NCBI GenBank assembly: GCA_026400835.1
Contig: JAPLOA010000033.1
Location: forward strand, 1 to 64,000
Direction of reading: 5' to 3'
DNA from: Planctomycetales bacterium
GTDB lineage: Bacteria; Planctomycetota; Planctomycetia; Planctomycetales; Planctomycetaceae
Length of the DNA stretch: 64,000 nucleotides
The translations under genes and the position numbers were made by a program. Under the pieces are notes generated by a model. It searched no databases, had not been told where the DNA came from, and saw only the letters and a list, made by a program, of their open reading frames with translations. Each line of letters starts with the position of its first letter. Position 1 is the first letter of the stretch. Shown one piece after another: positions 45,860 to 60,912 of the stretch.

Positions 45860-48328
45860 ATGTCGATTGCTCGGTTGTTCGCTCCCACGCTGAAACTCTT
45901 CGCTGCTGCGATGCTTGTGGGGTCATCCGCAAGTGGCGAAGTTGTGAAGCTGGAGCTTAGTCCCGTTGGTGAAGGTGATTTGATTACCATTCGCAGTCGG
46001 GATGCTCGACAGCAATTAATCGCCACGGCCGTGCACGCGGATGGCACTCTGACCGATGTGACTCGCGATGTCACATGGACCATTTCTGATCCGAAGGTGT
46101 TGGCGATTGATTCCACCGGGATGGCGGTTCCAACGGCCGACGGAGAAATCGCCGTCACTGCGGCTCTGGCTGATAAGTCGGTCGTGGCTAAAGTCGCGGT
46201 CAGCGGATTTGCCCACCCACTGCCGATCAACTTCCGCAATCAGATCGTGCCGATCTTTACAAAGCTTGGTTGCAACGGCGGTGGTTGCCACGGTAAGTCG
46301 GGCGGCCAAAACGGATTCAAGCTGTCGCTGCTGGGGTTCGTTGCGGAAGACGACTATGAGTTCCTTCGCAAAGAATCTCGCGGACGCAGAATTTTCCCGG
46401 CGATCCCCGGTGAGAGCCTTCTGATCAAGAAAGCGATTGGCCGCAGTCCTCACGGCGGTGGCAAGCGAATGGATCAGGGCAGCTATGAATACAATCTGAT
46501 GGTTCAGTGGATTGAACAGGGGATGCCCTATGGAGCTGACAGTGACCCTTACGTGGTCGGTATTAAATGCATTCCTGAAACACGTGTCATGCAGCGGAAG
46601 TCTCAGCAGCAGATTTCTGTGATTGCAACTTACAGTGACGGGACGACTGAAGACGTAACTCGCATGGCGTTGTTTGAACCGAATGAGCCGGAGATGGCAG
46701 AATCTTCGACGAAGGGACTCGTGACAACACTGGACCTCAGCGGTGAAGTGGCGATTATGGCTCGCTATCAGGGCCAGGTTGCAACCTTCCGAGCCACGGT
46801 TCCACTGGGAGCTGACACTTCAAAGATGCCGGAGCCAATCAATCTTGTTGACGCAGCTGTGTTCGGAAAGCTGAAGCAACTGGGGATTCCGGCGTCAGAT
46901 GTTTGTGACGATGCAACTTTTCTTCGTCGTGTGTCTCTGGATATCTCCGGAACGCTTCCTTCAGAAGAAGAAGTTCGTTTGTTCCTGGCTGATGCATCTG
47001 CGGATAAGCGAGATCGTTTAATCGATCGACTGCTGGATGGAACGGCCTACGCGGATCATTTCGCGAACAAGTGGAACTTCGTTCTTCGTAACAAGAAGGA
47101 AGGTGCCGACGATGCTCCAGGTACCATGTTGTTCCACCAATGGTTGTGGAATCGCATGTACGACAACACGCCATACGATCAGTTCGTCCGTGAAATTGTA
47201 ACAGCGTCCGGGGATCCTCAGATGAATCCTGCGGTGGTCTGGTATCGCGATGTGGACAGCACCGAAGAACAGGTTGAAGACACAGCTCAGCTGTTTCTTG
47301 GCTTGCGTATTCAGTGTGCCCGCTGCCACCATCATCCGTTCGAAAAATGGAGCCAGGACGACTACTACGGCATGGCTGCGTTTTATGGGCGTGTTGGGAA
47401 GAAGGCGATTCCAAACGTTGCCGGAACAATGCGTGATAAGCGTGTCTTCCACAATGAAGGTGTGGCTACAGCGAGTAATCCCCGCACAGGCAAAGCTCTG
47501 AAGCCGACCGGATTGGGCACGCCGGCCTACGAGATCGCTGCCGACAGCGATCCACGAGTCAAGCTTGCTGACTGGATGTCTGACCCAAAGAATCCATTCT
47601 TTGCGAAGTCATTGGTAAATCGTTACTGGAAGCATTTCTTCAGCCGTGGCATTGTTGAGCCTGAAGACGACATGCGGGAAACCAACCCTCCTGCGAATCC
47701 TGAACTTCTGAATGCTCTGTCAGATCATTTCATTAAGTCCGGTTTCGATATGAAGGAATTGATTCGCACCATTTGTCGGTCGCGAACCTATCAGCTTAGT
47801 GCTCTTCCAAACGAGCACAACGCCAGCGACAAGCAGAACTTCTCACGCTATTACCCTCGTCGGCTCAGCGCGGAAGTTCTTTACGATGCATTCCATGTGG
47901 TGACGGAAACCTCCGAGAACTTCGGTGGCATGCCGGCCGGGACGAAGGCAATGCAGTTGGTGGATTCTTCAAGTGCGACTTACTTCCTGCAGGTGTTTGG
48001 TCAGCCCAAGGGTGACACCGCTTGCGAATGTGAACGCAGCATGGATGCAAATCTGGCTCAGAGCCTGCACCTGCTGAACGGTCGCGAGATTCAGGACAAG
48101 ATTGCTCGCGACGGTGCTCGCACCGCGAAACTGGCTGCCGACACCGCGCGGCCGGATGAAGAGCGAGTTAAAGAATTGTATCGCTGGGTTTTCGCTCGCG
48201 AACCCAACGCAGAAGAGCTTGAAGTAGCCATCGCCTATATTAAGAAGCATTCTGATAATGTTCGCCGAGGCTATGAAGATGTTGTCTGGGCTTTGATCAA
48301 CACCAAAGAGTTCCAGTTCAATCATTGA
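45860..48328 (+). CDS. exported DUF1549/DUF1553 protein with Ig-like and cytochrome-type domains
   Basis: The 822-residue product has an AAGGAG ribosome site and a signal peptide (LFAAAMLVGSSASG-E). An N-terminal Ig-like domain (about 28-120) is followed by a haem-type 'LGCNGGGCHGKSGG' segment, a second Ig-like stretch (about 235-310), DUF1549 (about 320-530, with 'CARCHHHPFEKWSQDDYYG') and DUF1553 (about 560-820, with 'NRYWKHFFSRGIVEPEDDMR' and 'RRLSAEVLYDAFH'). This is the characteristic planctomycete secreted cytochrome-like family. Its biochemical function is not known; a role in polysaccharide or sulfated-substrate breakdown is often assumed. It heads a three-gene unit and is followed by a hairpin. 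Confidence 0.9.
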   Translation: MSIARLFAPTLKLFAAAMLVGSSASGEVVKLELSPVGEGDLITIRSRDARQQLIATAVHADGTLTDVTRDVTWTISDPKVLAIDSTGMAVPTADGEIAVTAALADKSVVAKVAVSGFAHPLPINFRNQIVPIFTKLGCNGGGCHGKSGGQNGFKLSLLGFVAEDDYEFLRKESRGRRIFPAIPGESLLIKKAIGRSPHGGGKRMDQGSYEYNLMVQWIEQGMPYGADSDPYVVGIKCIPETRVMQRKSQQQISVIATYSDGTTEDVTRMALFEPNEPEMAESSTKGLVTTLDLSGEVAIMARYQGQVATFRATVPLGADTSKMPEPINLVDAAVFGKLKQLGIPASDVCDDATFLRRVSLDISGTLPSEEEVRLFLADASADKRDRLIDRLLDGTAYADHFANKWNFVLRNKKEGADDAPGTMLFHQWLWNRMYDNTPYDQFVREIVTASGDPQMNPAVVWYRDVDSTEEQVEDTAQLFLGLRIQCARCHHHPFEKWSQDDYYGMAAFYGRVGKKAIPNVAGTMRDKRVFHNEGVATASNPRTGKALKPTGLGTPAYEIAADSDPRVKLADWMSDPKNPFFAKSLVNRYWKHFFSRGIVEPEDDMRETNPPANPELLNALSDHFIKSGFDMKELIRTICRSRTYQLSALPNEHNASDKQNFSRYYPRRLSAEVLYDAFHVVTETSENFGGMPAGTKAMQLVDSSSATYFLQVFGQPKGDTACECERSMDANLAQSLHLLNGREIQDKIARDGARTAKLAADTARPDEERVKELYRWVFAREPNAEELEVAIAYIKKHSDNVRRGYEDVVWALINTKEFQFNH

Positions 48329-48507: not shown

Positions 48508-51500
48508 ATGACTGGGATTAGATTCCTATTGGCTTCGGCCATCTTATTTCTCGGGGCATCCACGGCGACCGCTCAGTTGCCGCAGACGCGAATTACTTCG
48601 GTATTCCCTCCCGGGGGGCAACAAGGCGTGGCTGTCGACGTTGCTGTCGGCGGTGGCACTGACCTTGATGAACTGGATCAAATGGTCTTCAGTCATCCGG
48701 GGATTGTTGCAGTTCAGAAGAAGGACGCGAACGGAAATCCCGTGGCGAACACCTTCACTGTGACAGTCGCTGGAGACGTGGCGCCTGGGTTGTACGACGT
48801 GCGTGTGAAGGGTCTTTTTGGAGTCAGCAATCCGAGAGTTTTTCGAGTCGACAGCAGCCCCGAGATGGTCGAAGTTGAGCCGAATAATCTTGTGGCTCAA
48901 GCGACACCGGTGACGTTCGGTTCCGTCGTCAATGCTCGGGCCAATGGCGGTACAGATGTTGACTTCTTCAAGGTTACCGTCGCAGCCGGCCAGACTTTGG
49001 TCATTCGCTCGGAAGCTTCAGTACTCGGTTCGCCGATGCAGCCGATGCTGCAACTGTTCAACGCGGCCGGTCGTCGCGTCGCGGAGTCTCGTCGAATTTC
49101 TCTGCAGGAAGCGAGTATTGTTTACACAGCCACGCAGGCCGAAGAGATGATGCTGCGAGTTCAGGATGTTGTTTACGGCGGTGGCGATCAGTTTGTCTAT
49201 CGGGTTGCTTTCGATTCTCGACCGATGGTGGACTGGATTAGTCCATCGTTTGTCGTCGCGGGAACTCCTACAACTGTGACTGTCTTTGGTCGCCATCTTG
49301 CGGAGGCAGAAAAAACCGACAAGGTGCTTGGCGGGCACCCTGTCTTCAAGAAACAGATGACCATCACGCCGGCGGCTGCGACGCCTGTGGGAGCTGGTGC
49401 GACTGCCGCTTTTGCTGATTCGTTCTGGTGGAATGCCATTGAGGGCAATCTGGTGCGCGTTGGCCAGAGTCCGCTGCCTTCAATTTCGGAAGCCGTTGAG
49501 ACTCCCGATCAGGCGACCGCGTTGCCGTTTGAAGCCGCTGGTTCGTTTGGCGAGAAATCGGACGAAGACATTTATCGATTCGACGCAAAGAAGGGGGAAT
49601 CGTGGGTCATTGAGATTTTCGCTCAACGATTAGGCTCGATCGCTGATCCGTTGCTGTTGGTGGAAAGAATAGTTACGGCCGCTGATGGGACCGTGACTTA
49701 TCCACGCCTCGCGACAGAGGATGACGACAAGCAGAATCCGGGTGGAGTTGATCTGCCGACGATCGGCGATGATCCCTCTTTTCGACTCGATGTTCCGGAA
49801 GACGGTTCTTATCGGATTCGACTGAAGGATCGCTACGCGGATACTCGCGGCGATACTCGTCTGACATACCGCTTGTCTGTTCGTAAGCCAACGCCGGACT
49901 ACAGTCTGGTTGTTTTGGATGCCTTTCCGTCAGCCGATGGGAAAGCTCCCGTCACCAGCGGTGCGGCAAGCCTTCGCAAGGGAGGCAGTTATGAGATGAC
50001 CGTCTACGCTTATCGACGTGATGGTCATAACGATGCTATTCAATTGAGCGGTGAGAACCTGCCGGCAGGAATTGTCTGTCGACCAACCGTGATCGGGCCC
50101 GGACAGGTTTCTGCAAAGCTGGTTCTGACGGCAGCCCCTGATGCGGCCGAACAGTTGTCTCCGATTCGCATCGTCGGCAAAAGCGGCGCGGCGGAGGCTC
50201 AGCTTGCCAGAGATGCCAAGGTGGCCACACTCGTCCATGATGCCATCAATGGTCTTCCAAGAACGGCTCGTCTCTCCGAATCGCTGGTGGCTGGTGTGAT
50301 GAAAGACGAACAGCCATTTTCGATTGTGGTAGATCCTGTAACGGTCGACTTCAGTCAGGATCAGCAGTTGTTGATCCCGATCAAACTTGTGAAACGCGGC
50401 GGATTCGATGCTAAGGTTGACCTGAGCTTCTACGGCATCCCGGGTGAGGTTGACGCCCCGCCAGTGGCCATTGAACCGGGCAAGGACAGTATCGTCGCTC
50501 GAATCTACGTTAAAGAAAAGGCCCCTGTTTCAGCGAGCACGATTCTGGTGCAGGGAACCTCCGCCGTGCCGTACCGACGAAACCCATGGCTGGCAGAACG
50601 AGCCAAAGTCAAGGTGACCGAAGCTGAGAGAACCGTGACCGCTCGACAGGCCACTGTGACTCAGAACGATGTCACTTTGAAGGCGGCTCAGCAACTGGTC
50701 GTGACCGTGACGGAACAGGTTAAAAAGATAGGCGAAGAGCTGGCCGCTTATGCGACGCAGCAACAAAAATTGCGAGACGATTTCTCTAAAGCTGTGGCGG
50801 AGCAAAAGACATCCATCGAAGCGTTGGCAAAAGTTCAGGCTCAACTGGCGACGGTAAAAACCGAAGCGGCCAGTACGCCGGACCAGTTCAATGCGGCGAT
50901 TCAGTCCGTCAAAGAAGCAGCAACGGCCGCGGACGAATCTGCAAAGAAATTGACAGCGCTTGTGAACTCTGCCGCGGACCTTGCCAAACAGGTGGCAGCA
51001 ACCAAAGAGATGGAAGCAACCAAGCTGAAAGAGAAAACGACCGCCGAAGAAGACGTCGTCAAACGAACCAAGGAAGTCGAGGTCGCTCAGGCGGCATTGA
51101 CGGCTGCCCAGAAAGAAGTGGAAACGGCGACCGCCGCGAAAACAGCCGCAGACGCTGCTCTGAAGGCGGCCGAAGACGCGACAAAACCAAATCCTGTCAA
51201 TGTGCGAGCTATTTCGGAGCCTCTGGTTTTGACCATTCATGCGGGACCCGCGAAGCTTGCTGCCGCTGTTCCGGACGGTTCAATCAAGCGAGGAGCAGCA
51301 GTGCCTGTGAAGGTTACTGTCACTCGGAAGAACAACTTTGCAGGAGTGATGAAGTTGAGTCTTGTGCTGCCGGATGGCGTCACGGGCTTAACGGCTGATC
51401 CAGTTGATGTGGCCACAGATCAGGCGGAAGGAACTCTGACGATCACCGCGGCCGCCGATGCCCCTGTGGGCGATCTGGCCAACGTTGTGATCCGCGCGAC

Positions 51501-51564
51501 GGGTGATTTCAACGGACGGGCTGCATCTACCGATGTACCAGTGGCAGTAAAAATTGTGGAGTAA
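48508..51564 (+). CDS. exported PPC-domain protein with long alanine-rich coiled coil
   Basis: The 1018-residue product has a signal peptide (RFLLASAILFLGASTATA-Q). Residues about 25-330 contain beta-sandwich segments of Ig/PPC type ('ITSVFPPGGQQGVAVDVAVG', 'VEVEPNNLVAQATPV', 'GTDVDFFKVTVAAGQTLVIR'); a second PPC region spans about 320-460. Residues about 695-890 form an Ala/Lys/Glu/Thr-rich coiled coil ('TAEEDVVKRTKEVEVAQAAL'), and the last 120 residues return to a beta sandwich. No protease domain is present. It probably serves as an extended exported binding scaffold for the neighbouring cytochrome-type proteins. Confidence 0.82.
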   Translation: MTGIRFLLASAILFLGASTATAQLPQTRITSVFPPGGQQGVAVDVAVGGGTDLDELDQMVFSHPGIVAVQKKDANGNPVANTFTVTVAGDVAPGLYDVRVKGLFGVSNPRVFRVDSSPEMVEVEPNNLVAQATPVTFGSVVNARANGGTDVDFFKVTVAAGQTLVIRSEASVLGSPMQPMLQLFNAAGRRVAESRRISLQEASIVYTATQAEEMMLRVQDVVYGGGDQFVYRVAFDSRPMVDWISPSFVVAGTPTTVTVFGRHLAEAEKTDKVLGGHPVFKKQMTITPAAATPVGAGATAAFADSFWWNAIEGNLVRVGQSPLPSISEAVETPDQATALPFEAAGSFGEKSDEDIYRFDAKKGESWVIEIFAQRLGSIADPLLLVERIVTAADGTVTYPRLATEDDDKQNPGGVDLPTIGDDPSFRLDVPEDGSYRIRLKDRYADTRGDTRLTYRLSVRKPTPDYSLVVLDAFPSADGKAPVTSGAASLRKGGSYEMTVYAYRRDGHNDAIQLSGENLPAGIVCRPTVIGPGQVSAKLVLTAAPDAAEQLSPIRIVGKSGAAEAQLARDAKVATLVHDAINGLPRTARLSESLVAGVMKDEQPFSIVVDPVTVDFSQDQQLLIPIKLVKRGGFDAKVDLSFYGIPGEVDAPPVAIEPGKDSIVARIYVKEKAPVSASTILVQGTSAVPYRRNPWLAERAKVKVTEAERTVTARQATVTQNDVTLKAAQQLVVTVTEQVKKIGEELAAYATQQQKLRDDFSKAVAEQKTSIEALAKVQAQLATVKTEAASTPDQFNAAIQSVKEAATAADESAKKLTALVNSAADLAKQVAATKEMEATKLKEKTTAEEDVVKRTKEVEVAQAALTAAQKEVETATAAKTAADAALKAAEDATKPNPVNVRAISEPLVLTIHAGPAKLAAAVPDGSIKRGAAVPVKVTVTRKNNFAGVMKLSLVLPDGVTGLTADPVDVATDQAEGTLTITAAADAPVGDLANVVIRATGDFNGRAASTDVPVAVKIVE

Positions 51565-51744
51565 TGATGCTCAATCAATAGTCTGCTTGACAAAACGGGA
51601 CTGCCTCGAGGAGACCGCAGAACACTTCAACAAGAAGCATTCAGAGCGCAGTGTTCGGTTTTGTTGGATCTCCCTTACTCTGTTTCGTTTGATCGCCGCA
51701 GACATTAGTGAATGCTCGGTAATTCAACATAGGTGAAAGTCGTT

Positions 51745-54546
51745 ATGAAATCGATCATCAAATCTCTGCTGGCGTTCAGCGTCACAGGTTTAATGTTTGC
51801 GTCTGCTTCTCTGGCCGACGAACTAAAGCCAATTGTTCATGAGGAACCAGCCCTCGGGCGGCCGGTTGAGTTTGAGCGAGATGTTTATCCGATTCTGGAA
51901 GCCAACTGCATCGCCTGTCACAATGTGACGGTCTCAGAAGGTGATCTGATTCTGGAAAACCTCGAAGCCATTCTCAAAGGGGGCAGCACTGGTCCGGCCG
52001 TTGTGGCGGAGAAGCCTGATGAAAGTTTGATGTATAAACTGTCTCGGCGGGGCGATGAACCAGTCATGCCACCGTTGCCGAATGATCGTCAGGCGAAGCA
52101 ACTCGATCCAAAGCAACTCGGTATTCTCCGTCAGTGGATTGTCGAAGGGGCGAAAGCTGGTCCCGCGACGGCGAAGGCGATGAACTGGCAGCCGATCAAC
52201 TCAAAACTGCACGGCGTCTATTCGCTGGATCTCGACGCACCAGGGCGGTTCGTCGCGGCGGGACGTGGTAACCATGTCAGCATCTATGATATGGCTCGCA
52301 AGGACGCGGTCTCTTCTTTGATTGATCCGCAGATCCTGTTGCCGGACGGTTCAGCTCCTGCCGGAGTTGCTCATCTCGACTATGTCCATGCGATCGCGTT
52401 TCATCCGACGGAATCTGTGATTGCGACATCCGGTTACCGCAATGTGAAACTCTGGAAACGCGATGGCGAAAGCATTTCTGCGGCATTTGCAGTTCCTGCC
52501 GACGCACAGTCATTGGCCGTGTCGCCCGATGGATCTGAAGTGATTCTGGGCGTGGCCTCACGAGGCGTCGTGGTGGCCAATGCGGCATCCGGTGCAGAAC
52601 GTGGAACAGTAGCAGTGGACGGACAGGCCGTTGCGGCGATCACTGCCTTCGCTAGTGAACCGAAATGGATTCTGGCGGCAACTGCGGATGCCCGCATCGT
52701 TGTCATCAAGGGGGCCGATCTCACCATTGCACACAAGACCGAACCGATGCCGGCAGCTGTGACGTCACTCAGTGATGAGCTTGCCGGGAATCGCGTGGCA
52801 GCGTTGCTGGCTGATGGCAGCGTGAAATTGCTGACAGTGGCTGCAGACACTGGCGTTGTGGCTGTTGCCGCAGAGATCAAGTCTGATGCCGGTCCGATTC
52901 AGAAGCTTTCCGGTGCAGGAACTTCCCTGCTGACAGTGGCCGCTGATAAGACGGTTCAGAACTGGAAGACAGATGATGCCGCTCAAATCAATCGCTTCGA
53001 CCTGCCTGGAGCCGTGGTCAGCTTTGATGTCGATGCTGCAACGGATCGAGCTATCTTCGTCCTGGCGGACGGACAGGCACTACTATGGTCACCGAAAGAG
53101 GCGAAGCAGATTGCAGCGTTGACAGCCGACCTGATGGCTCAGCGAAAACTGAAGAAGGCAGAACAGTCCAAAACCGTTCTCGACTCACGCGTCGCTGTCA
53201 TCAAGGCTCAGATTGACGAGGCAGAAAAGGAAGTCGTAGCTCAGAAGGAAGCGGAAACAAAAGCCAAAGCGGAACTCGACAAGCAGACTCCGCTTCAGGC
53301 CGATGCCAAAACGAAATATGACGCTGCTGTTGCGGCGACGGCTGCGGCGAAAGCAGCGTCGGAAGGCAAGCCTGACGATGCCGCACTTAAGACAGCGTTC
53401 ACTGAAGCCGAAAAGGCGGAAGCCGCAGCCAAGGAAGTCTTCAGCAAGGCTGATTCTGAACTCAACATCGCAAAGAAGTCGTTGGATTTCGCAACCGCCG
53501 CGATTGGTCGAGCAGAAACTCGAGTCGGCGAACGAAAGCAGCAGCACGAAGCGGCAACTGTCGAAGCTACAGCATCGGCAGCGATCGTTGAAGAACGCAA
53601 GGCTCCGGCAGCCGCTGCGATTCCAGCCGCATTCGCGGGCCTGGCTGTCGATGGGCGTTATGTTCTGACATCAGATGCAGCCGGAACACTCCGCGTGTGG
53701 AATTCAGTGGACGGAGTTGCGATTGACGTGCTGCCCGGGACCAAAGTTGCTGCCAATATCTCAGCCATGAAAGTCGTCGGAGCAACAGCTCTGTTGCAGA
53801 CGGCCGATGCTCGCCTGGTTTCCCGTTCCGCGTTTCCAGCGTGGCAGTTGTCAGCCTCTCTGGGTGGCCTGGAGAGCGGTGGAGAATCCGTGTTCGTGGA
53901 CCGAGTTCTCTCTTTGGCATTCTCACCAGATGGTATATTGCTGGCTGCGGGTGGCGGCGAAGCATCGCGTTCTGGTCAGCTGACACTCTGGAGCACTGTC
54001 GACAATTCACTGGTTCATCAGTTCGTGGATGCTCATAGCGATACCGTCTATGGAATCGACTTCTCTGCTGACGGTAAGCAGATCGCCTCCGCAGCGGCTG
54101 ACAAGTTTGTGAAAGTGTTTGACGTCGCGACAAGGCAGTTCATTCGATCATTCGAAGGCCATACTCACCACGTGATGGACGTCTCCTGGAAATCAGATCG
54201 CACAACCCTCGCAAGTGCCGGTGCTGATAATGCGATCAAAGTCTGGAACGCGGAGACCGGCGAGCAGGCTCGAACAATTGCGACTTATACTCGTCAGGTG
54301 ACTTCTTTGGCCTACGTTGGTCAGCAGGATATCATTGTGAGCAGTAGTGGTGATAAACGCGTGTTCTTCCACACGGCCAGCAACGGTGCTCCGGCCCGTG
54401 AATTTAAAGGCAACTCAGACTACGTTTACCGCACGGCAACGAACACCGACGGAACAATCGTCGTCTCCGGCGGAGAAGACGGCATCGTGCGTGTCTGGAA
54501 CGCCGCCGACGCGGTAGAGCTGGCCAAGTTCGATCCCGCACAATAA
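51745..54546 (+). CDS. exported cytochrome-domain WD40 protein with internal coiled coil
   Basis: The 933-residue product (ATG 51745 after AGGTGA; the frame opens at GTG 51733) has a signal peptide (LLAFSVTGLMFASASLA-D). A planctomycete-type cytochrome c domain with a single haem motif, 'LEANCIACHNVTVSEGD', lies near 55. WD40-like blades cover about 150-455, then an alanine/lysine/glutamate-rich coiled coil (about 458-625), then at least six further WD40 blades ('YGIDFSADGKQIASAAADKF', 'WNAETG', 'GGEDGIVRVWNAADA'). The coiled coil interrupts the propeller. It follows the PPC protein, which has a comparable coiled coil, so the two may pair. Probably acts in the periplasm or at the cell surface. 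Confidence 0.85.
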   Translation: MKSIIKSLLAFSVTGLMFASASLADELKPIVHEEPALGRPVEFERDVYPILEANCIACHNVTVSEGDLILENLEAILKGGSTGPAVVAEKPDESLMYKLSRRGDEPVMPPLPNDRQAKQLDPKQLGILRQWIVEGAKAGPATAKAMNWQPINSKLHGVYSLDLDAPGRFVAAGRGNHVSIYDMARKDAVSSLIDPQILLPDGSAPAGVAHLDYVHAIAFHPTESVIATSGYRNVKLWKRDGESISAAFAVPADAQSLAVSPDGSEVILGVASRGVVVANAASGAERGTVAVDGQAVAAITAFASEPKWILAATADARIVVIKGADLTIAHKTEPMPAAVTSLSDELAGNRVAALLADGSVKLLTVAADTGVVAVAAEIKSDAGPIQKLSGAGTSLLTVAADKTVQNWKTDDAAQINRFDLPGAVVSFDVDAATDRAIFVLADGQALLWSPKEAKQIAALTADLMAQRKLKKAEQSKTVLDSRVAVIKAQIDEAEKEVVAQKEAETKAKAELDKQTPLQADAKTKYDAAVAATAAAKAASEGKPDDAALKTAFTEAEKAEAAAKEVFSKADSELNIAKKSLDFATAAIGRAETRVGERKQQHEAATVEATASAAIVEERKAPAAAAIPAAFAGLAVDGRYVLTSDAAGTLRVWNSVDGVAIDVLPGTKVAANISAMKVVGATALLQTADARLVSRSAFPAWQLSASLGGLESGGESVFVDRVLSLAFSPDGILLAAGGGEASRSGQLTLWSTVDNSLVHQFVDAHSDTVYGIDFSADGKQIASAAADKFVKVFDVATRQFIRSFEGHTHHVMDVSWKSDRTTLASAGADNAIKVWNAETGEQARTIATYTRQVTSLAYVGQQDIIVSSSGDKRVFFHTASNGAPAREFKGNSDYVYRTATNTDGTIVVSGGEDGIVRVWNAADAVELAKFDPAQ

Positions 54547-57727: not shown

Positions 57728-59206
57728 TTACTTCTGTGATGTCTGAGTTCCATGTTCTTCACGATTCATATCGCGCAATTGCATTTCACGATCTCGTTGG
57801 TCTAACTCCGTCTTTTGCATGCGACTCATGAACAGAATGATCGTTCCAATCACAATAGCGAGCATCGCAATCCCCAGAATGAGCAGAGATTGTCGACTCA
57901 ACTTGATTCCGAAGACTTTTTCACCAAGGATCAGGTCATCGGCAGAGTTTGCAGCGGAAGACGACGAGCCTGCGAATCCGAATTCACTGGGATCTGTGGG
58001 CGGAATCGTCGAGATCGTGGCCAGGTTCTTTGCGATTCGTAGTCGAGTTTGGCATTTCACACAACGGCCCGTTTTTCCAGCATGTTTCTCCGATAGTCGG
58101 AACTCTTTACCACAATTTGGACAGTTAATGGCTCCGTTCTTTTTGACCCGGGAAACTTTGCCCGTCGGAAGCGCCTCACCAATGGATCGCAGCGGAACGG
58201 ACTTTGGTTTTCGTTTTCTGAAACTGGTGGCATCACTCGCAGCTCGTGCGGTGGAGTCATTCGCGGCATTTGCAGGTGGAGGAGCAATGGTTCGCGAGGA
58301 GATCAGCGACATATCAGATTCGGGTTCGGAACTCAGTCCCGCGATGACAGCGTCTGCAAATTCGCCGCACGTGGCGAAGCGTTCTTCGGGCTTCTTCAGC
58401 AGAGCCCTTGCGACGGCCGCAGCCACGGCAGCAGGCACTGCTTTTCTCACCTCGTTCAAAAGTGGCAACACTCTGCGTGTCTGATTGACCATTGTCGCCG
58501 AAGGGCTTTTCCCCAGCATCGGCGGAGTTCCAATCAGTGCGTTGTACACAGTGATTGCCAGAGAGTACTGATCGGCTCTGCCATCGTAGTCTCGTCCCAG
58601 CACGATTTCGGGGGCCACAAAATTGGGCGTCCCGACAACGAGACCGGCTCCCGTAGCGTCTGCATCACCTTCGTCCGCCTCCCCGTACATCATTTTGGTC
58701 AGACCGAAATCACTCAGAAATGCATTGCCGTGTTCGTCGAACAGGATATTGGCCGGCTTAACATCGCGATGCACGACCTGCATCTGATGCGCAAAATCCA
58801 GCGCCTTCGCGACGGACGGCAACCATGTGCGAAGCGAATCGATTCGCATCGCCGCCGGCTTGCCTTCTTTGGTTTGCATGCGATCCAGCAGGCATCCGCC
58901 GGAGAGGTACTGCATGACAACATAAGGAACAGAGCCGTGAACTCCAATATCCATAATCCTCACAATGTGGGGATGCTGTAACTGAACAAGCAGACGGCTT
59001 TCTCGTTGAAAACGTTCTTTCAGCGATGGATCCAGCAACTTCTCTTTTCGTGGAACCTTGATGACGACTTCTGTTTCCAGACGATGATCAAAAGCGCGAT
59101 AGACCAGGGCCATACTGCCCGCACCGATGCGCGCCATGACTCGAAAACGTTTGTCTGCCAGAGAAACGCCGACAAATCGATCGGGTTGAGTGGAATCAGA
59201 AGTCAT
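57728..59206 (-). CDS. Ser/Thr protein kinase with zinc-ribbon and C-terminal membrane segment
   Basis: The 492-residue product has a Hanks-type kinase domain at its N-terminus: glycine-rich 'RIGAGSMALVYRAF', invariant Lys 50 in 'VVIKVPR', catalytic 'HRDVKPANILFD' (146-157) and 'SDFGLTKMM' (166-168). After about residue 290 a Ser/Ala/Lys-rich linker contains a zinc-ribbon-type motif 'CPNCGKEFRLSEKHAG' with a second 'CVKCQ' pair. A hydrophobic segment (about 436-458, 'LLILGIAMLAIVIGTIILF') and a short charged tail end the protein. The kinase is therefore cytoplasmic and anchored from its C-terminus. It is the last gene of a three-gene minus-strand unit with another kinase and a WD40 protein. 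Confidence 0.92.
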   Translation of the reverse strand: MTSDSTQPDRFVGVSLADKRFRVMARIGAGSMALVYRAFDHRLETEVVIKVPRKEKLLDPSLKERFQRESRLLVQLQHPHIVRIMDIGVHGSVPYVVMQYLSGGCLLDRMQTKEGKPAAMRIDSLRTWLPSVAKALDFAHQMQVVHRDVKPANILFDEHGNAFLSDFGLTKMMYGEADEGDADATGAGLVVGTPNFVAPEIVLGRDYDGRADQYSLAITVYNALIGTPPMLGKSPSATMVNQTRRVLPLLNEVRKAVPAAVAAAVARALLKKPEERFATCGEFADAVIAGLSSEPESDMSLISSRTIAPPPANAANDSTARAASDATSFRKRKPKSVPLRSIGEALPTGKVSRVKKNGAINCPNCGKEFRLSEKHAGKTGRCVKCQTRLRIAKNLATISTIPPTDPSEFGFAGSSSSAANSADDLILGEKVFGIKLSRQSLLILGIAMLAIVIGTIILFMSRMQKTELDQRDREMQLRDMNREEHGTQTSQK

Positions 59207-59289: not shown

Positions 59290-60879
59290 CTACGGCGGCG
59301 TATCGAGGTCATCGAGAGAGAACGTGGATTTTCCCGCGGCGGCGTCCTTCTTATCTGCCCCAGTTGACTCTTCCTTTTCTGCCCCCGCTGGCTTTTTGGG
59401 TTGGATCAGGTTTGTTTTGCCTTTTTGTATTGACGGATCTGCGTCGCTGCCTTCTTCAAAATTCCTGATGGGAGTTTCCGGATCAGGATCCCTGCCATTG
59501 AGAAACAGAAGTATCGCCAGTGACAACGCTGTCAACGATCCCGCGATGATCCAGATGCGCGATCCCCTGTGCGATGTCGGAGCGGTTTCTATTGGAGCTT
59601 TCGCAGCCTTCTTCTTCTTTTCCTTGTGTGATACGGTCTGCCAATCGATTTCGGCCGCGCGATCCAGTACCGAACGCACAGTCGGATCTGTCGCAGGCTG
59701 CGTTTCCGCGACTGACGATGTTTCAGCCGGTTTTTTCCCTCTGCGTTTTCGCGGTCGTGCGTCACCGTCGCCGCTTTCCGATGCCGAGAATCCGGAATCG
59801 TCAGGATGTACGGCCGCCGTGTCTGTGGGCACCTGTTCGTCCGCCCAACGCCCAACCAGTCCATCAGCAGACTGATTTCGAGAAATTGATCCGGGGGCCG
59901 AGCGAGCCACGGAACCGCTGGCCCCGGACGACGTCCTCGTCAGGAATTGCGTGAGTTCAGCATGGCATTCTCCCATTGTCTGAAATCGTTTTTGAGGCGA
60001 TGTCGCCATCATCTTCAGGCACAGCCCTGACAACTCGGCAGGGACCTCGCCGTTGATTGCATCAGGAGCCTCGCAATTTCCCTGAAGGATTCCGAAAAGC
60101 ACCTGAGTCATCGTCCCGCGATAGGGACGCTTCCCGGTCAGGGCTTCATAGAAGATGACACCCAGACTAAAAATGTCTGAACGGTGGTCGACGCCTCGAC
60201 CATTCACCTGCTCCGGAGACATATAGGCCGGGCTGCCCAGAATTTGTCCCTGATGCGTGATCCCCGAGTCCTTCTCATCTCGCAACATCGCCAGACCGAA
60301 ATCCAGCAGTACCGGAAGTCCATCGGAGTCGAGCATGATGTTGGCTGACTTGAGATCACGATGCACAACCTGATGGTCGTGTGCATGCTGCATTGCGAGG
60401 CAGATTTTCTGGATCAGTCTCGCTGCTTCACGTGGCCGAAGAAAGCGTCCCTTCCCTACAGCGCTGTCGAGGGTTGAACCTTTGACAAAGCCCATCGCAA
60501 TAAACACTTTCCCGTCGATCTCCCCAACGTCATAGATTGGACAAATCGAAGGGTGGTTGAGCCGCGCGACCGCACGTGCCTCTCGATAAAACCGTTGAAG
60601 CATCTGAGTTCGAGCGTCTGCGTTCTCCAGCTTCGGCACTTTGATGGCCACATCCCGGTCCAGAACTTTATCCCGGCCTCGATAAACTGTCCCCATCGCA
60701 CCAGCCCCCAACTCCGCCACGACCTCGTATCGGCCCAGCATGAAGGGCATGCTCCGGGCTGAATCATGACCGTCCGCGGAGTCCGAAACTGAGTTCGACT
60801 TGAGCTCGTTGTCAGGCACGCGACGTTGCCGCGGCTCCATGTCACGGCCATCATTCTGATCAGGATCGGATGACGTCAT
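59290..60879 (-). CDS. Ser/Thr protein kinase with C-terminal membrane segment
   Basis: The 529-residue product from ATG 60879 (the frame opens at 60897) has a Hanks-type kinase domain: 'VVAELGAGAMGTVYRG', 'VAIKVPKLEN', catalytic 'HRDLKSANIMLD' and 'LLDFGLAML', followed by the activation-segment 'GSPAYMSPEQV'. The C-terminal half is a basic, low-complexity linker (RPRKRRGKKPA, HKEKKKKAAK), a transmembrane segment (RIWIIAGSLTALSLAILLFL) and a charged acidic tail. It is transcribed with the downstream kinase (83 bases) and the upstream WD40 protein, and may transmit signals sensed by the WD40 partner. Confidence 0.9.
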   Translation of the reverse strand: MTSSDPDQNDGRDMEPRQRRVPDNELKSNSVSDSADGHDSARSMPFMLGRYEVVAELGAGAMGTVYRGRDKVLDRDVAIKVPKLENADARTQMLQRFYREARAVARLNHPSICPIYDVGEIDGKVFIAMGFVKGSTLDSAVGKGRFLRPREAARLIQKICLAMQHAHDHQVVHRDLKSANIMLDSDGLPVLLDFGLAMLRDEKDSGITHQGQILGSPAYMSPEQVNGRGVDHRSDIFSLGVIFYEALTGKRPYRGTMTQVLFGILQGNCEAPDAINGEVPAELSGLCLKMMATSPQKRFQTMGECHAELTQFLTRTSSGASGSVARSAPGSISRNQSADGLVGRWADEQVPTDTAAVHPDDSGFSASESGDGDARPRKRRGKKPAETSSVAETQPATDPTVRSVLDRAAEIDWQTVSHKEKKKKAAKAPIETAPTSHRGSRIWIIAGSLTALSLAILLFLNGRDPDPETPIRNFEEGSDADPSIQKGKTNLIQPKKPAGAEKEESTGADKKDAAAGKSTFSLDDLDTPP

Positions 60880-60912
60880 CGTCGCCCTCAACATCAAATA
60901 AGGAATGCGGAA

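Follow-up and report, generated by a model that had tools for sequence, protein, structure and literature searches.

A three-gene set of exported planctomycete proteins with helical hairpins of variable length in two of its members

Three exported proteins encoded in a row

The window analysed here is a 64,000-nucleotide stretch of a Planctomycetales contig (JAPLOA010000033.1). Three genes follow one another on its plus strand, to which all feature coordinates below refer, with gaps of 179 and 168 bp between them. The first (45860..48328) encodes an 822-aa DUF1549/DUF1553 protein, which matches the Pfam families PSCyt2 (PF07583, DUF1549; E 9.5e-49) and PSD1 (PF07587, DUF1553; E 2.1e-48) with 166.6 bits (cut-off 29.8) and 165.3 bits (cut-off 28.5). 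The second (48508..51564) encodes a 1018-aa protein with Ig-like domains and a PPC domain at residues 352-439 (Pfam E 1.6e-8), hereafter the PPC protein. The third (51733..54546) encodes a 937-aa protein, hereafter the WD protein, which joins a PSCyt1 cytochrome domain (PF07635; residues 59-114; E 9e-12, 45.9 bits against a cut-off of 22) to WD40 repeats; its start is more likely the ATG at 51745 than the GTG at 51733. PSCyt1, PSCyt2 and PSD1 are planctomycete-specific families, and two of the three proteins match them. Judged by eye from the sequence, all three proteins have an N-terminus resembling a signal peptide.

Haem motifs were found by motif scan in two of the three proteins. The DUF1549 protein carries the CX4CH haem-type motif CNGGGCH (residues 138-144; 46271..46291) and, in its DUF1549 region, the CXXCH motif CARCH (residues 486-490; 47315..47329). 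C-x4-CHG is conserved in 71/74 and CXXCH in 74/74 of its orthologues. The WD protein has the CXXCH motif CIACH (residues 59-63; 51907..51921), present in 74/74 orthologues, and the PPC protein has no haem motif. The sequence CNGGGCHG (46271-46291) of the DUF1549 protein falls outside every Pfam match, and this N-terminal CX4CH is possibly a non-canonical haem site.

A DUF7133 cytochrome gene upstream was considered as a further member of the set and set aside, as among the compared loci it occupies the same place only in one of the same genus (L018); a COILS-type scan found no coil in its product. On the minus strand, the neighbouring genes at 57728-59206 and 59290-60897 read like serine/threonine protein kinases.

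Retention of the gene set across Planctomycetia

Gene order was surveyed at 80 loci of the family, one paralogous trio (L141) included. The WD gene lies directly downstream of the PPC gene in 75 of the 76 loci with room on the contig, and the DUF1549 gene directly upstream of it in 71/80. In six genomes (G005, G008, G058, G090, G091 and G166) the DUF1549 gene is unlinked and an orthologue is present elsewhere in the genome; in G091 all three genes lie apart yet are present. Across the order, 147 of 170 genomes have a PPC orthologue (E <= 1e-60). All three genes are jointly absent from eight genomes of at least 93% completeness (G003, G004, G070, G082, G092, G093, G095 and G149), absence being scored at E <= 1e-200 for DUF1549, 1e-50 for WD and 1e-60 for PPC. 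The other three PPC-less genomes tested (G080, G102 and G160) are fragmented assemblies in which the DUF1549 gene is present. Other families of the class show this order at most loci and, where it is broken, the genomes checked hold all three genes.

The earlier note on this DNA had proposed co-occurrence of the three genes as a check, and here its expectation was borne out: the order is near-constant, the genes are absent together, and they are kept even when unlinked. Taken together, the results strongly support a functionally linked set of three genes, retained across the class Planctomycetia and usually adjacent. Gene neighbourhood and joint loss are evidence of functional linkage, not of contact between the proteins. 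The DUF1549/DUF1553 proteins count among the families that planctomycetes have multiplied most; one member is now singled out, kept class-wide with two fixed partners.

Related genes are found elsewhere. The window's genome holds three paralogous modules (L041, L044 and L046) in the order PPC, DUF1549, WD; among them only the WD protein of L046 has a coil, its PPC protein and both proteins of L041 and L044 having none. A second paralogous set in the window's genome (G000) is scattered over three contigs (C74:40197-43214, L038; C83:38192-43030, L052; C68:78184-80592, L057), with a coil in the PPC protein, a coil in a 1649-aa WD protein and a DUF1549 protein 51% identical; its counterpart in G088 is clustered (L141). 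A 1008-aa open reading frame at L047:8155-11181 appears to be a PSCyt1-WD40-PPC fusion, as it matches both the WD protein and a portion of the PPC protein. The window's 7.6-Mb genome has 95 matches to DUF1549 (PSCyt2), 93 of them above the cut-off.

Helical hairpins in the PPC and WD proteins

A COILS-type scan with an approximate scoring table found coils in the window trio only at residues 724-893 of the PPC protein and 467-600 of the WD protein; the DUF1549 protein has none. Over the coil ranges given in the earlier note, the composition is 24-26% Ala, 12-14% Lys and 11% Glu. Within the window's family no full-length copy lacks either coil, and the coils are therefore not there by chance.

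Single-chain AlphaFold2 models were built on alignments of 15-17 orthologues. The WD model (pLDDT 79.8, pTM 0.71) contains two series of 28 strands, grouped in fours, which form two seven-bladed propellers at about residues 160-465 (52210..53127) and at residues 634-933 (53632..54531); the second is the more conserved in orthologues (mean identity 70% vs 55%). Foldseek matches this model to tandem WD40 propellers, 2ymu and 1nr0 among them. Two helices, 467-545 and 550-627 (53131..53613), stand precisely between blades 7 and 8 of the model and are joined by a turn at residues 546-549 (53368..53379; motif KPDDAALK), a position that agrees with the mid-coil turn of the orthologues. The PPC model (pLDDT 74.7, pTM only 0.45) is an all-beta chain with one helical insert (50584..51180), in which helices 693-784 and 791-891 are joined by a turn at residues 785-790 (50860..50877). 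This insert, at what we call site B, lies within an Ig-like domain, in the loop that links beta strands 676-689 and 895-902.

Each insert is thus modelled as two near-equal helices with a short turn, not as one continuous coiled coil, and because its ends return to neighbouring strands the helices must run antiparallel, that is, as helical hairpins. On the models, with helix packing read from connectivity, each coil is a self-contained intramolecular antiparallel hairpin. The WD helices taken alone have no significant heptad signal against shuffles (p 0.52 and 0.11). The earlier note had described adjacent exported PPC and WD proteins with Ala/Lys/Glu-rich coils behind a DUF1549/1553 gene, and open reading frames, Pfam, the COILS-type scan and AlphaFold2 all agree with that, its coil ranges being right to within a few residues of the modelled helices. 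Its description of each insert as a long coiled coil holds as regards an insertion into a beta scaffold; the single continuous coil is replaced by a hairpin with a central turn.

The position of the turn was then located in the coils of 74 orthologous trios. Counting D/N/P/G residues proved too noisy a way of finding turns; the weight matrix used instead was made from the turn sequences of these same coils, position information excluded. Many orthologues from other genera carry a further PPC hairpin (site A), which sits one Ig-like domain earlier, in a loop equivalent by sequence context to that of site B. A significant motif, resembling KPDDxxLKK, was found in 109 coils, and in 100 of these it lies within 0.42-0.58 of the coil, a central 16% in which about 17 would be expected under random placement (WD 61/65, median 0.500; PPC-B 18/21; PPC-A 21/23). 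Arm pairs include 82/82, 103/103, 148/149 and 173/173 for WD, 78/84, 99/105, 120/126 and 141/147 for PPC-B, and 48/62, 90/104, 111/125 and 153/167 for PPC-A. At site A both arms lengthen together (Spearman 0.81); the arm rank correlations of PPC-B and WD, which have few length classes and include false turn calls, are not positive and significant.

Hairpin length varies widely. Over the family, coil spans range from 128 to 340 residues for PPC-B, from 201 to 386 for WD and from none to 348 for PPC-A, the longest PPC arms being those of the L123 set; among the closest relatives they are near-constant (PPC 242-243, WD 201-204); a WD span of 201-204 is found in 55/74 orthologues. Frequent length classes lie 42 residues apart (A 138, 222, 264, 348; B 214, 256, 298, 340). 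These classes suggest a strict lattice of 21 residues per arm, but we do not claim one, as no period reached significance when each length was counted once (A p 0.14, B p 0.31, W p 0.25). After phylogenetic correction the lengths of the PPC and WD coils do not covary significantly (contrasts: B-W r -0.15, p 0.42; A-W r 0.28, p 0.18; A+B-W r 0.17, p 0.49), and one genus combines a very short PPC hairpin with a very long WD hairpin. Length gains of PPC-A and WD are weakly associated (3 shared branches, p 0.024, uncorrected), which leaves room for some functional coupling of the arms.

One of the two hairpins can be lost. In three genera of one other family (L153, L163 and L164) a short loop replaces the PPC hairpin, while the WD coil of 260-290 residues is kept; L163 and L164 have their DUF1549 gene at an unlinked position. 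Since the gene set is kept in these genera, the PPC hairpin is dispensable for it. Short PPC hairpins of about 60-80 residues occur in L154, L156 and L158. No full-length copy seen lacks the WD hairpin, and these copies come from several families of the class. The two hairpins also differ in sequence conservation: at 65% identity and with many invariant residues, the WD hairpin comes close to its scaffold (propellers 55% and 70%), and the PPC hairpin falls below its own (54% vs 68%). These levels point to the WD arm as the more important of the two.

Hairpin segments have also moved between genes. Within single trios of several genomes, hairpin DNA is shared, being 86% identical over 416 nt between PPC-A and PPC-B (L127), 77% over 464 nt between PPC-A and WD (L105) and 77% over 476 nt between PPC-B and WD (L086). 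In blastn comparisons 13 hairpin pairs from the same genome exceed 100 bits (5/37, 3/37 and 5/74). Of about 10,800 pairs taken from different genomes only 13 do so, and almost all of these come from related genomes. Codon usage or the heptad pattern does not account for this likeness, as shuffles preserving both never exceeded 76 bits. The same-genome matches and the shuffle controls therefore indicate that segments were copied between PPC and WD genes, as well as from one PPC site to the other, and here partner genes are clearly seen to exchange parts of their structure. Such copying explains some of the matching between PPC and WD coils. Between the window's own two hairpins no recent copying was seen; their likeness is one of composition and shape.

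A proposed role for the hairpin arms

We consider it probable that the trio of the class Planctomycetia consists of cooperating exported proteins, in which the hairpins would be stiff arms, acting as spacers or in docking, and not an intermolecular zipper. The set would bring together two haem-motif proteins and an all-beta scaffold in what is probably an electron-transfer or haem-protein assembly of the periplasm or cell surface, with its beta domains as the joints. Computation shows that the set is retained, that the inserts have hairpin geometry (by models and turn position), that their lengths are independent, that the PPC hairpin can be lost and that segments are copied; the physical complex, its haem loading, its location and the spacer or docking role are inferred. 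The hairpins would be anchored at surface positions, namely the junction of the two WD40 propellers and the loops at the ends of PPC Ig-like domains, at site B in the window and at site A as well in other genomes. From there the arms may project by about 12 nm in the WD protein (78 residues x 0.15 nm) and 14-15 nm in the PPC protein, and further in other genomes. Arm length evolves by extension and shortening, separately in each of the two proteins and with the turn kept near the middle, and segments are sometimes copied between neighbouring genes or between the two PPC sites. The arms are thus probably spacers or docking arms rather than the glue of the complex. More tentatively, the trio might be an undescribed class-wide haem-protein complex whose length-tunable arms, spread by copying between partner genes, let each lineage adjust its geometry, for example the span to an outer layer or to a neighbouring complex. 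Because the trio is fixed its function becomes testable, and species without the PPC arm are natural controls.

A different arrangement would have the PPC and WD hairpins lie side by side as a four-helix bundle, an optional contact that strengthens a complex held by its beta domains. Segment copying between the two genes, the three branches shared by PPC-A and WD length gains and the near-scaffold conservation of the WD hairpin are all consistent with such a bundle. However, PPC-B and WD lengths are uncorrelated, the PPC hairpin is less conserved than the rest of its protein, and in one genus the PPC hairpin is very short although the WD hairpin is very long. We regard this arrangement as unlikely. 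That the hairpins are near-neutral Ala-rich repeat expansions at surface loops, without a role and alike through recombination between repetitive segments of neighbouring genes, fits their low-complexity sequence, the large variation in length, the copying itself and the loss of the PPC hairpin in one family. We find it improbable, given a WD hairpin that is present in every full-length trio gene seen across several families, that keeps a span of 201-204 in most orthologues and that has many invariant residues, and given turns that stay mid-coil.

The reading put forward in the earlier note, that a three-part complex is held together by pairing of the PPC coil with the WD coil, and of both with the DUF1549 protein, gains something from tight gene linkage, from both coils occurring in every full-length family trio and from segment exchange, which would keep the coils compatible, but it is very improbable: the hairpins close on themselves (models and turn position), the DUF1549 protein has no coil, the coils vary independently in length, a paralogous module has a coil in the WD protein only and two others in neither, and it is largely refuted by the three genera in which the genes and the WD coil persist without the PPC hairpin.

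PSCyt and PSD proteins, of unknown function, are frequent in planctomycetes and Verrucomicrobia (PMC5615132), and redox or carbohydrate roles have been suggested for these families (PMC5615132, PMC2754498), a redox role among them for a stress-induced DUF1549/DUF1553 gene of Rhodopirellula (PMC2754498). In Verrucomicrobia, PSCyt2 genes usually adjoin a family of unknown genes (PMC5615132). With these neighbours, and with further PPC/DUF1549/PSCyt1-WD40 modules in the genome, the earlier statement that DUF1549/1553 proteins have no known partners was too strong. Unlike the PSCyt/PSD families as described, the trio has a PPC/Ig-like partner in a three-gene set and a helical-hairpin insert. A literature search, as a weak negative with subscription papers mostly outside its coverage, found no description of the trio, of its hairpins or of Ala-rich planctomycete coiled coils.

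Other systems offer partial likenesses to the stiff arms that we propose. MCP chemoreceptors have antiparallel cytoplasmic hairpins, in which Alexander and Zhulin reportedly described, in 2007, symmetric heptad insertions and deletions. The trio's hairpins resemble them in having two arms that change length together; unlike them, they are exported, set in beta scaffolds and alanine-rich, and no fixed length step was demonstrated for them. The adaptors of tripartite efflux pumps (HlyD/AcrA type) have a long periplasmic helical hairpin projecting from beta domains, as the trio's hairpins do, but the scaffolds differ, and no adaptor family is among the Pfam/NCBIfam hits at E 0.1 (for the WD protein, among the best 25 of 50 Pfam families). 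The propeller followed by an alpha-solenoid of PVC membrane-coat-like proteins is also not what the WD model has, which is a two-helix hairpin between propellers and no solenoid.

In its tandem propellers the WD model is like AIP1 (PDB 1nr0) and 2ymu; unlike these, the WD protein includes a cytochrome domain, and its propellers are separated by an arm of about 160 residues. Its orthologues vary in size ahead of the arm. In one genus (g47; L111, L112 and L113) they are shorter, at 813-895 aa, and the coil starts about 150-180 residues earlier, which suggests a reduced or altered first propeller. Those of L092, L093, L101, L102, L126, L141 and L164 reach 1400-1660 aa, and their several hundred extra residues before the coil are perhaps additional propellers.
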